A stretch of DNA of 64,000 bases, taken from assembly GCA_905234195.1 (NCBI GenBank), contig CAJOFR010000012.1:62001-126000 (forward strand), in the 5' to 3' direction. How positions within the stretch are numbered: position 1 is the first letter of the stretch; every line of letters starts with the position of its first letter. Positions 5,072 to 52,877 of this stretch are shown piece by piece. The position numbers were made by a program, and so were the translations under genes. The DNA is from an uncultured Selenomonadaceae bacterium (lineage in GTDB: Bacteria > Bacillota > Negativicutes > Selenomonadales > Selenomonadaceae). Below the pieces are notes generated by a model that was given only the letters and a program-made list of their open reading frames with translations, had not been told where the DNA came from and did no database searches.

Positions 5072-5172
5072 CTTCTTTTCTTTTGGCGCAAAAGAAAAGA
5101 AGCAAAAGAAAACTGCCCGCAGAGGTCGCATCACGCGACCAAATGCGGGCGGCCGCACGTCCTTGTGCGGCC
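5072..5172 (+). repeat. three-hairpin structured element, copy 1
   Basis: Hairpin 1: 14-bp perfect stem CTTCTTTTCTTTTG / CAAAAGAAAAGAAG with 3-nt loop GCG (5072-5102). A 12-nt A-rich spacer follows. Hairpin 2: outer stem GCCCGC (5115-5120) with GCGGGC (5145-5150), 3/4-nt internal loop, inner stem GGTCGC / GCGACC with loop ATCAC (5124-5140). Hairpin 3: GGCCGCAC / GTGCGGCC around GTCCTT (5151-5172). It lies 3' of rnc in the same orientation. The same layout with different stem sequences recurs at 43270 and 52778, which points to a conserved RNA fold. Function unknown. Confidence 0.8.
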
Positions 5173-5189
5173 TCTACTTTTAATAATCC

Positions 5190-6545
5190 CTAGTCGTCGT
5201 CGTCGTTGTAGCTAATATCGTCGTCACGAACATAGGCAACCGAAGTGAAGAGCATGCACTCTTTATTGAAGAAGAGCCGCAAATTTGTCGTGGGACCGTT
5301 GCGATTTTTCGCGATAATCAATTCGGCAAGGTTTTCGTTTTCAGCCTCTTGCTTGTAATAATTTTCGCGGTAGAGGAACATAACCATATCGGCATCTTGC
5401 TCCAGCGAACCGGACTCACGCAAATCACTAAGTTGCGGACGTTTATCCGCGCGTAGTTCAACATTTCGCGAAAGCTGACTCAAGGCGATAACAGGCACGT
5501 CAATTTCGCGCGCCAAAGCCTTTAGGTTGCGGGAAATTTCGGAAATCTCCTGCTGGCGGTTGGAATCAAGTCTGTTCGAGGAAGATCCTTGCATCAGCTG
5601 AAGATAGTCGATAACAATCAAGTCAAGCCCGCTGTCCATTTTCAGGCGGCGCGCCTTCGAGCGAAGTTCCAGAGCCGAAATCCCGACGGTGTCATCAATA
5701 AAAAGACTTATATTCTGCAGATGCTGAAAGGCGTTGACGATATTCATGAACTCTTCTTCAGTCAGCTGACCGGTATTTACTTTCAGCGAATCAACTTTGC
5801 TGTCGGCGACCAAAAGACGAGTACCGAGTTGCAGTTTGCTCATCTCCAGCGAAAAAATTGCGACCTTCCTGCCCGCCAACGCGGCGTTCATGGCGATATT
5901 CAACGCGAAAGAAGTTTTTCCCATAGACGGGCGGGCGGCTATCAAAATCAAATCGGAACGCTGAAAACCATTTGTGATTCTGTCCAGATCTTCAAAGCCG
6001 CTCCCGACGCCGCCGATACTTTCCGGATTGTGGAAAAGCTGACGGATTCTGTCGAAGGAACGTTCCAAAATCGGCGTGATATTTTCAAATTCGTTGCGCG
6101 TGCTTTTCAAAGTCACGCTCAAAATTTTTTGTTCGGCGTTTTCAAGAATTTGGGAGACGGGTTTCATATCCTGGTAGGCTTCGGAGGAAATTTCTTCGCC
6201 CGCGTAAATAAGTTTGCGGAGGGTAGCTTTTTCCTTGATAACTTTCGCGTACTCCTCAACGTAAGCCGTCGTGTGAGCAAGGTCGCCCAAAGCCATAACC
6301 GAGCGCAAATCCATTTTGTTGAGCATTCCGGCGCGGTGCAATTTTTCTATCAGCGAAAGCAAGTTCGGGACTATTCCTTCGTTGTACAATTCCAAAATCG
6401 CGCCGTAAATTACTTGGTGCTCTCCCCTGTAAAAATCTTCTTTGTTTAAAATTGCCGAGACTGCGGAAACAATTTCGCCTTTTTTCAGCAGGAGCGCACT
6501 AAGCACGAATTTTTCCATCTCCACCACGTTTGGAAGTTCACGCAT
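5190..6545 (-). CDS. dnaB: replicative DNA helicase
   Basis: 451 aa. The N-terminal helical domain begins MRELPNVVEMEKFVLSALLL, a divergent form of the usual 'AEQAVLGAIL' start. The RecA-like helicase domain has Walker A ARPSMGKTS at ~203-211, IFSLEMSK, the Walker B region DLIVIDYLQLM, and the arginine-finger area AKNRNGPT. It unwinds DNA ahead of the replication fork as a hexamer. The tail is acidic (YNDDDD). The gene is convergent with rnc; its usual partner rplI is not adjacent. Confidence 0.95.
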   Translation of the reverse strand: MRELPNVVEMEKFVLSALLLKKGEIVSAVSAILNKEDFYRGEHQVIYGAILELYNEGIVPNLLSLIEKLHRAGMLNKMDLRSVMALGDLAHTTAYVEEYAKVIKEKATLRKLIYAGEEISSEAYQDMKPVSQILENAEQKILSVTLKSTRNEFENITPILERSFDRIRQLFHNPESIGGVGSGFEDLDRITNGFQRSDLILIAARPSMGKTSFALNIAMNAALAGRKVAIFSLEMSKLQLGTRLLVADSKVDSLKVNTGQLTEEEFMNIVNAFQHLQNISLFIDDTVGISALELRSKARRLKMDSGLDLIVIDYLQLMQGSSSNRLDSNRQQEISEISRNLKALAREIDVPVIALSQLSRNVELRADKRPQLSDLRESGSLEQDADMVMFLYRENYYKQEAENENLAELIIAKNRNGPTTNLRLFFNKECMLFTSVAYVRDDDISYNDDDD

Positions 6546-6631
6546 CGAAATTACTCCCTCTCCTTTGACAAAAATTCCTCTCGTAAATTCGACTTGATTC
6601 GCGATAATTCCTGTGTCAAACGTCTAAAATT

Positions 6632-6642
6632 TGTGCTATAAT
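6632..6642 (+). promoter_or_regulatory. candidate extended -10 promoter for the PHP gene
   Basis: TGC followed by TATAAT (6634-6642) is an extended -10 element 46 bp before the TTG start at 6688. No good -35 is visible 17 bp upstream (TGTCAA), which fits an extended -10 promoter. Confidence 0.55.
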
Positions 6643-6687
6643 TCGATTGACTGAACAGAGAAAATTTTTTCAAGGGACGTGGTATTT

Positions 6688-50967: not shown

Positions 50968-50994
50968 GCTTAACTTAAAAGGTTACGTCTCCAC

Positions 50995-51035
50995 AAAAAA
51001 ATAAAGCCCTTCCGACTTTTGCCGGAAAGGACTTT
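50995..51035 (-). terminator. intrinsic terminator of groSL
   Basis: AAAGCCCTTCCG (51003-51014) pairs with CGGAAAGGACTTT (51023-51035), 12 bp with one bulge, loop of 8; followed on the minus strand by ATTTTTTT. About 70 bp after the groL stop. Confidence 0.85.
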
Positions 51036-51107
51036 GATTAAAATCTTGGGGGTTACGGTTTTAGAGCCGCAACCCCAAATTTTATTTCGGCTTAAAAAAT
51101 TTTCAAA

Positions 51108-52730
51108 TTACATCATGCCGGGCATGCCGCCGCCCATTCCGCCTGCAGGAGGCGCGGGAGGTTCGGGCTTGTCGGCGACGAGAGTTTCAGTAGTAAGAAC
51201 CATCGCCGCAATCGACGCCGCATTTTGCAACGCGGAGCGCGTGACCTTCGCGGGATCCACGATACCGGCTTTAATCATATCGACGTACTCGTTTGTCAGA
51301 GCGTTGAAACCGACGCCCTTTTCAGCCTTCTTGACTGCCTCAACGACGACGCTGCCTTCTTGCCCTGCGTTTTCAGCGATTTGACGAACGGGCTCCTCAA
51401 TCGCGCGCTTGACAATATCCACGCCGACTTTTGCATCGCCTTCGAGTTTGACTTCGTCGAGGACGGGCAGAATATCAATAAACGTCGTGCCGCCGCCGGG
51501 AACGATACCCTCTTCGACAGCCGCGCGGGTTGCGTTCAGGGCGTCTTCAATGCGGAGTTTCTTTTCCTTCATTTCAACTTCGGTAGCCGCGCCGATTTCG
51601 ATAACCGCAACGCCGCCCGCGAGTTTCGCAACACGCTCACGAAGTTTTTCTTTGTCGAAGTCGCTGGTAGATTCTTCAATCTGCTTTTTAATCTGCGCGA
51701 CGCGATATTCAATTTCCTTCTTGTTGCCGTTGCCGTCGACGATAGTTGTATTTTCTTTCGTCGAGCGGATTTGACGCGCCGTGCCGAGATCCTCAAAGGT
51801 AACACTTTCAAGTTTGCGTCCGAGCTCTTCGCTGATAACATTGCCGCCAGTGAGAATGGCAATGTCTTCGAGCATAGCTTTTCTTCTGTCGCCAAAACCT
51901 GGAGCCTTAACCGCAACTGCCTTGAACGTGCCGCGAAGTTTATTAACGACGATTGTAGCAAGTGCCTCGCCGTCAACATCTTCCGCGATAATCGCAAGCG
52001 GTCTGCCCTGCTTAACAATCTGTTCAAGAATCGGCATAATGTCAGCGATTGACGAAACTTTTCTGTCAGTCAAAAGAATGTACGGGTCGTCGAGGACAGC
52101 TTCCATTTTGTCAGCGTCGGTGACCATGTACGGCGAAATATATCCGCGATCGAACTGCATACCCTGCACGACTTTGAGGTTAGTCATCATCGTCTTGGAT
52201 TCTTCGACGGTAATAACGCCGTCATCGCCGACCTTCTCCATAGCGTCCGCGATAAGGTTGCCGATTTCTTCATCGCTGGAAGAAATGGACGCGACCTGTG
52301 CTTTAGCGTCTTTAGTCTCGACTTTTTGAGCAAGGTTTTTAATTTCTTCGACGAGTTTCTTGACGGCAACTTCGATACCCTTTTTAACAATCATCGGGTT
52401 CGCGCCTGCCACGACGTTGCGCATGCCTTCGCGGACGATAGCCTGCGCCAACAAAGTAGCGGTTGTCGTGCCGTCGCCGGCAACATCATTTGTCTTCGTC
52501 GCAACTTCTTTTACGAGCTGCGCGCCCATATTTTCAAAATGATCCTCAAGCTCAATATCGCGGGCAATGGTCACGCCGTCATTGGTGATTGACGGTGCGC
52601 CGTACTTCTTTTCAAGAACGACATTACGACCTTTAGGACCAAGAGTAACTTTCACAGCATTAGCCAGCGCGTCGACACCGCGACTAAGAGCGCGGCGCGC
52701 TTCTTCATTAAACAAAATTTCTTTCGCCAT
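51108..52730 (-). CDS. groL: chaperonin GroEL
   Basis: 540 aa, canonical size. [40 protein letters not shown], the ATP-site [14 protein letters not shown], the apical domain, [10 protein letters not shown], and [19 protein letters not shown]. It ends in the Gly-Met tail [11 protein letters not shown]. Folds proteins with GroES. A 175-bp gap with a structured element separates it from groS. Confidence 0.97.
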
Positions 52731-52777
52731 ATATATCCCTCCGAACCAATTACAAATTAAAAATTAAGAAAGCCTGG

Positions 52778-52877
52778 AGCCGCCCACGGATGGGCGGCTG
52801 CCCGCGCCTTTTCCGGAAGAAAAGAAAGCGGGCGATTTTTTCTTTGTTTCTTTCTTTTTTCTAAAAAAAGAAAGAAA
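52778..52877 (-). repeat. three-hairpin structured element, copy 3 (groES-groEL intercistronic)
   Basis: Read on the minus strand. Hairpin 1: TTTCTTTCTTTTTT / AAAAAAGAAAGAAA, 14 bp, loop TAG (52877-52847). 12-nt spacer CAAAGAAAAAAT. Hairpin 2: GCCCGC (52833-52828) / GCGGGC (52805-52800), inner CTTTTC / GAAAAG with a 5-nt loop. Hairpin 3: AGCCGCCCA / TGGGCGGCT with loop TCCG (52799-52778). Same geometry as copies at 5072 and 43270, inside the groES-groEL mRNA. Confidence 0.8.

Follow-up and report, generated by a model that had tools for sequence, protein, structure and literature searches.

The 64,000-nt stretch of DNA analysed here (the window) covers positions 62,001 to 126,000 of contig CAJOFR010000012.1 from an uncultured Selenomonadaceae bacterium, which probably belongs to the rumen genus Quinella or lies very near it, although Quinella is filed under Veillonellaceae in the NCBI taxonomy. 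Three copies of a dispersed element are found in the window, with an RNase III gene, a periplasmic-binding-protein gene and groES as their respective upstream neighbours, the third copy being located in the groES-groEL gap. Each copy starts with a first hairpin (H1), whose pyrimidine arm, loop and purine arm are followed by a third strand with the letters of the purine arm in mirror order. Two GC-rich hairpins (H2 and H3) complete the copy, their loops mostly containing RTC(C/A).

In copy 1 (plus strand), H1 spans 5072-5102 with a 14-bp stem (5072-5085/5089-5102) and a 3-nt loop, and is followed at 5104-5112 by the third purine strand AAAAGAAAA, which mirrors the purine arm with 9 of 9 positions in register. 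H2 (5115-5150) pairs GCCCGC with GCGGGC around GGTCGC/GCGACC and a loop ATCAC, and H3 (5151-5172) carries TCC in its loop. Copy 2, likewise on the plus strand, has a 14-bp H1 stem with the loop TAG (43270-43300), the third strand AAAAGAAAAA at 43302-43311 mirroring AAAAAGAAAA in 10 of 10 positions, H2 at 43314-43348 (GCCCGC/GCGGGC around GATTGC/GCAATC, loop ATCAC) and H3 at 43354-43367. Copy 3 is on the minus strand, with H1 at 52847-52877 (14-bp stem, loop TAG), the third strand AAAGAAAAAA at 52836-52845, H2 at 52800-52833 (GCCCGC/GCGGGC around CTTTTC/GAAAAG, loop TTCCG) and H3 at 52778-52799 (loop TCC). Its third strand mirrors AAAAAAGAAA in 10 of 10 positions, and the G in it shifts along with the G-C pair of the stem.

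All hairpins were identified by sequence and fold, H3 of copy 2 by sequence. For copies 1 to 3, each folded in isolation, the fold z-scores against dinucleotide shuffles were -8.2, -7.9 and -6.0 as DNA and -8.4, -7.3 and -5.6 as RNA, and none of 200 shuffles matched the native fold for any copy in either form. For copy 2 as DNA, the three hairpins alone represent the centroid fold and not the minimum-energy fold. The three elements and their stems are present where the first-pass annotation, made from the window alone, had placed them. The common three-hairpin layout described there also folds as expected, except that H3, whose stem has 8-9 bp in most intact copies, has decayed to 5 bp in copy 2.

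The A-rich stretch behind H1, taken in that annotation for a spacer, is instead a third strand: it reads as the purine arm of H1 backwards. Modules with an asymmetric purine arm allow mirror and direct repeats to be told apart, and all 23 of them (8 from the host genome, 14 from relatives and one from a Clostridiales record) have a mirror spacer, with no direct case and none that fits neither type. They represent nine distinct sequence types, with a joint chance of about 1e-10 under shuffled spacer letters; 97 further modules are symmetric and hence uninformative. With a looser detector that admitted other hairpins too, 26 cases favoured the mirror and 4 the direct arrangement. A first script without a defined linker had returned 14 mirror, 11 direct and one neither; in these 11 and the one, linker letters had been read into the core (AAAAGAAAA-GAAG and, once, AAAGAAA-GAAG), and the cores became symmetric once the linker was defined. 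Since duplication yields direct repeats and inversion yields complements, the mirror symmetry calls for a structural reason.

The stems conform to the ITxF class II pattern, i.e., pyrimidine-purine-purine (Y-R-R) order with A·A-T and G·G-C triads, a length of 6-15 nt and at most one mismatch, the purine cores of the element being 7-11 nt long. ITxF loops range from 1 to 6 nt, and the window copies have 3-5 nt between the triad cores and a second loop of 5 nt. With all 14 bp of the stem paired, a linker of 1 nt would put strain on a triplex; the stem may therefore open at its foot, or the two folds may alternate. Outside the host genome, apical loops of at least 6 nt were found in 69 of 97 distinct modules. 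In 59 of these 69, at least four Watson-Crick pairs can form between the loop and the bases directly after the third strand, as opposed to a mean of 24.6 and a maximum of 33 with shuffled partners in 500 rounds. The loop-tail helices have many different sequences and are found in Bacteroidota as well as in the Quinella group. Judged by its letters, this arrangement in the relatives is the layout of an H-type pseudoknot; the apical loops of the host genome, mostly 3-4 nt, leave no room for a loop-tail helix. By sequence comparison, the first module thus bears the mark of an intrastrand triplex, which in relatives would be closed as a pseudoknot.

The loops of the other two hairpins show recurring letters. 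The H3 loop C[AGT]TCCNTG is kept in 85 of the 93 full-length copies of the host genome, and the H2 loops of relatives, inspected by eye, are mostly RTCAC or contain TCC. Types of H1, H2 and H3 occur in mixed combinations, i.e., the modules have been exchanged. In the related locus L135, H3 lies on the opposite strand with respect to H1 and H2 (forward loop AAGGAT), a local inversion of one module. Many copies of the host genome also show, by eye, an extra small hairpin within about 25 nt upstream of H1, of the type CCCTTGATAAGGG, CCAAAGAGTTTGG or GAATGAGCATTC, ending in GCT, GAT or CAT directly before H1 and possibly representing a fourth module.

Further copies, for which the first-pass annotation had suggested a search, do exist in the genome and its relatives. 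A strict pattern has 103 exact matches in the host genome (2.09 Mb; 55 forward, 48 reverse), at least two of which are double counts (C4:19908/19912, and C25:11141 as the reverse reading of C25:11152); the reversed pattern, used as a control, has none. A slightly relaxed pattern yielded 95 copies with flanks, 93 of them with both neighbours called by a codon-usage script trained on the window; 93 is also the size of the separately counted set of copies that are full-length at both ends. The copies are mostly intergenic, and only 7 of the 95 overlap a called open reading frame (ORF) by more than 30 nt. For the relatives, a covariance model was built from 25 of the 95 copies. It comprises H1 and H2 only, because H3 was misplaced in the MAFFT alignment that included it. 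The model matched 31 of 37 genomes of the genus, the host included, and 2 of 23 genomes outside the genus, both weakly, with 0 to at least 77 matches per related genome.

Of 398 genomes sampled from the phylum, 396 lack the strict H1 pattern; it is matched in the host and in one other genome, where the pyrimidine arm is missing by eye. The pattern had no match in viral contigs. Among the matches listed, the named genomes are rumen or gut Selenomonadaceae and Selenomonadales, two Quinella sp. 1Q7 contigs, many Bacteroidota and the one Clostridiales record. In Bacteroidota it is the H1 module that recurs, and the sequence after it differs by eye. The Rfam scans (release 15) returned no family with this layout: no match in the window reached its gathering score, all four matches of copy 1 at a relaxed threshold were under theirs, and 11 related loci returned two tRNAs only. 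Literature searches by motif strings found no paper with the element sequence, and the consulted portions of the literature on Selenomonadaceae or Quinella repeats, including PMC9585023, hold no description of it.

To characterize the stem changes, 78 model matches from 67 chosen sources, corresponding to 72 distinct rows, were aligned. Compensatory changes, already seen between the three window copies, extend through the family: double changes affect 23 of 26 pairs (327 cells), and only 5 cells show a one-sided change. Among 1834 pair cells of H1 and H2 there are just 6 G-U pairs and 46 mismatches. H3 behaves similarly: 86 host copies have 486 Watson-Crick cells, 3 G-U pairs and 17 mismatches, and 48 relatives have 286 Watson-Crick cells with a single G-U pair and a single mismatch. 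As a control, RNase P RNA was counted with the same script in 28 genomes (28 of 30 loci, L294 and L297 being omitted; 12 from the genus, the rest from relatives) and gave 298 G-U pairs in 2528 cells (11.8%) and 41 mismatches; the 12 genus members alone gave 134 in 1073. G-U accounts for 11.5% of the non-Watson-Crick cells in the element vs 88% in RNase P RNA. Selection on one RNA strand would leave room for G-U pairs; a fold of DNA, a role for both strands or repair templated by the hairpin would leave none. The tolerance expected of an RNA is not seen in the element stems, and changes this close to pure Watson-Crick point toward a DNA fold or use of both strands. Selection on RNA or cruciform structure, as first proposed from the stem changes, is therefore not supported in its RNA form as the leading explanation, and its DNA-level alternative fits better.

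Copy 3 offers a view of how an element may have arrived. None of the 29 other genomes whose groES-groEL spacer was read (19 from the genus, L234 to L251 and L259, and 10 from the class) has the element there; at least two of these loci, L249 and L251, have a related H1 module elsewhere in the examined stretch. The simplest reading is that the copy was gained in the lineage of the host. The rnc-dnaB pair was unusable as a second empty-site test, as the two genes are located on different contigs or at different places in relatives.

Taken together, we lean, if only just, toward the view that the elements form a dispersed, REP-like repeat, non-coding, which works as folded DNA and probably also spreads in this form. 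Once replication or transcription exposes a strand, H1 and the third strand would fold into an intrastrand triplex, of the purine motif on this strand and of the T·A-T pyrimidine motif on the complement. Where the apical loop is long, as in relatives, the triplex would be closed as an H-type pseudoknot. A putative enzyme might recognise the folded strand with its two loop hairpins while copies spread, after which copies would swap modules; effects on adjoining genes, such as terminating transcription between convergent genes, would come as a side effect. Mobility, folding inside the cell and any benefit are what we infer from the observations above. A bolder version would see a cross-phylum class of mobile DNA, shared by Quinella-type rumen bacteria and Bacteroidota, in which a putative enzyme moves a pseudoknotted intrastrand triplex and selection maintains all three strands and the loop-tail helix. 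We offer it tentatively and consider it rather unlikely in this full form.

Several points weigh against a repeat that folds and moves as DNA. The presumed insertion at groES-groEL concerns one locus, at which the relatives are 78-85% identical. No target-site duplication and no excess of 2-7 nt flanking repeats were found in 82 copies, and the element thus shows no sign of the target-site duplication by which an element derived from an insertion sequence or a miniature inverted-repeat transposable element would be recognized. The Y1 transposase domain (Y1_Tnp, PF01797) is missing from 27 of 31 element-bearing genomes of the genus, several of them incomplete; the host genome has a single, partial match, which covers positions 59-121 of the 121 in the profile. 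Among the neighbours of copies no recurrent mobility gene was recognised: by eye, the largest ORF clusters beside Bacteroidota copies (226 ORFs) look like repeat translations, and those of host and related copies (486 ORFs) like ordinary genes. The triplex itself may be weak on the purine strand, as purine-motif triplexes are stabilised by G-G-C triplets (PMC4666352, in the part drawn on here) and each window copy has one. In the same part of that paper, the comparable E. coli motif acts neither as a promoter nor as a terminator, and nothing supports a triplex that is stable in vivo. The roughly 35-fold gap in G-U content sets element pairs from a model-fitted alignment beside RNase P pairs predicted by RNAalifold, which makes for an imperfect match, and the pair cells are non-independent events, as copies share descent. 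Hairpin-templated repair, too, can produce perfect palindromes in the absence of selection. Finally, the upstream gene of host copies is co-directed in 62 of 93 cases (p 0.002), which is what an RNA or terminator role predicts.

Such a role is the alternative that survives best, although we regard it as doubtful on balance. As an RNA, the element could protect or end mRNAs by a triple helix and two stable hairpins, or the plus transcript could end at H3 and the pyrimidine tract behind it. A U·A-U triple helix is found at the ends of the PAN and MALAT1 RNAs, and a transcript of the complement would offer U-rich, U-rich and A-rich tracts in this order and in mirror register. The stable RNA folds of the window copies are consistent with this, and a triple helix alone would forbid G-U in H1. 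Against it, G-U is almost missing from H2 and H3 too. The gene setting is likewise divided. In the host genome, the 95 copies lie between convergent genes in 35 cases, between two forward genes in 27, two reverse genes in 19 and divergent genes in 12 (directions relative to the element), with one neighbour missing in 2. The downstream gene converges in 54 of 93 (p 0.15), and the tail after H3 is pyrimidine-rich, with T reaching at most 0.64 per position in 85 copies. An intrinsic terminator would be a GC hairpin with a T tract behind it, placed after genes in a consistent orientation, and the pyrimidine-rich tail and the many convergent gaps of the host genome bear on this. In relatives, 60 of 78 modules found had both neighbours called (3 modules lay within a called ORF), with 27 and 20 tandem, 7 divergent and 6 convergent settings and no strand preference relative to genes: the upstream gene was co-directed in 33 of 60 and the downstream gene converging in 26 of 60. 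Their right flanks, by eye and uncounted, often have no T tract after H3. Placement 3' of a co-directed gene, initially stated for all copies, applies to the three in the window and is no rule of the family, as the upstream gene is opposite in 31 of 93.

A further explanation, which we consider improbable, holds that the elements are selfish or neutral palindromes kept perfect by hairpin-templated repair, which copies one arm to the other, and that the fold is under no selection. Double Watson-Crick changes nearly without G-U or one-sided intermediates are what such repair would leave behind, and the inverted H3 of L135 would suit it. It does not explain why the third strand is mirrored and not inverted, why the loop pairs with downstream bases or why the TCC loop of H3 is conserved.

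That loop has a possible meaning of its own. On the complementary strand, C[AGT]TCCNTG reads as an ANGGAX hexaloop on a stem, i.e., as a Csr/Rsm site, and ANGGAX is given as the high-affinity CsrA/RsmA form in the relevant part of PMC4005645. The copies could then titrate CsrA, whose gene is present in 33 of 37 genomes of the genus. It is present just as well in 5 of the 6 element-free ones, and csrA is unmatched in a Bacteroides control genome, although Bacteroidota copies have TCC loops too by eye. The H2 loop is often RTCAC without GGA (by eye), and transcription shows no preference for the GGA strand (54 of 93 in the host genome, p 0.15; 26 of 60 in relatives). As csrA does not track the elements, titration was rejected, and we give it very little credence. 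Least credible is the view of the elements as classical REPs that a RAYT (Y1) transposase mobilises. Copy number, intergenic hairpins and letters resembling GTAG at the base of the H1 purine arm might speak for it, but the GTAG is paired inside the stem, whereas the GTAG or CGTC tag of a REP is unpaired at one end, and the distribution of Y1_Tnp given above disfavours mobilisation by RAYT.

The window also contains a second dispersed repeat family. Degenerate 7-nt arrays (e.g., TAAGGGG, TAGTGGC) are found at 8776-8835, 12539-12610, 30944-31003, 32478-32537, 33058-33131, 35320-35354, 57165-57236 and 61142-61213; several stand head to head and could form hairpins (by eye), and those at 12539, 57165 and 61142 surround the purine core AAGAGAAAAGAAAAT. 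The period-7 signal is 0.342 upstream and 0.302 downstream of the 93 copies, and about equal (0.333) in 19 element-free gaps, so there is no special association of heptamers with the element. By eye, the groES-groEL spacers of L234, L235, L241, L242, L245 and L249 hold 7-nt arrays of other heptamers, e.g., TAATGCG, TTTGAGC, TAGTGAC and GACTAGG, the period being constant and the sequence changing. The RNase P RNA gene of the host genome and three relatives (L314, L307, L312, L322) has an extra stretch of about 60-80 nt at alignment columns ~130-218, which in L314 reads by eye as an inverted heptamer array within the RNA. Separately, the intergenic interval 58930-59351 contains CCCGCCCTTTAGGGCTGGGGG, which we take to resemble the right end of an IS605/TnpB-type element; the adjoining gene encodes a sodium:solute symporter and not TnpB.

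Among known systems, the element resembles three. H-type pseudoknots may have an A-rich third loop (L3) running along the first stem (S1), and the long-loop modules of relatives show S1, a second stem (S2) and such an L3. The element differs in that S1 has about 13-14 bp, L3 mirrors the purine strand of S1 and the stems are nearly free of G-U. With the GTAG and CGTC superfamilies of REP/BIME sequences, as far as the portion of PMC3733652 used here describes them, the element shares high-copy intergenic palindromes, interchangeable complementary stem letters and frequent placement between convergent genes. In contrast to them, it has no unpaired GTAG or CGTC tag, measures about 100 nt with three different hairpins and is nearly without G-T stem pairs, whereas GT pairing was often observed there; RAYT is missing from most genomes that carry it.

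The closest likeness is to the triplex motifs of Holder et al. 2015 (PMC4666352), to the extent that the part of the paper drawn on here covers them. Motifs of Y-R-R layout form triplexes in vitro as DNA; in E. coli they are intergenic and without strand bias, and such motifs vary in copy number and are linked to genome instability. The element shares with these motifs (ITxF class II; TM_ECO of E. coli) the order of pyrimidine stem, loop, purine stem, loop and mirror purine stem, the intergenic position, the missing strand bias (in relatives) and a copy number that differs strongly between related genomes. Unlike TM_ECO, which is GC-rich and follows one general pattern, it is A-rich with one or two G per strand and occurs in many sequence types that covary across all three strands. 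Its apical loop in relatives often pairs with bases past the third strand, and the term 'pseudoknot' does not occur in the main text of that paper; moreover, its triplex motif is a single module within a larger composite that has two further hairpins. Triplex-prone bacterial repeats were already known, and the part of that study used here argues from motif counts and one general-pattern motif. In the element, the third strand mirrors its stem across nine sequence types, a relation that neither simple duplication nor simple inversion would yield. The G-U count, in turn, provides a simple way to tell DNA-level from RNA-level stem covariation in dispersed repeats, and with mirror tracking in nine types, whether cells use or keep triplexes becomes testable by comparative sequence.

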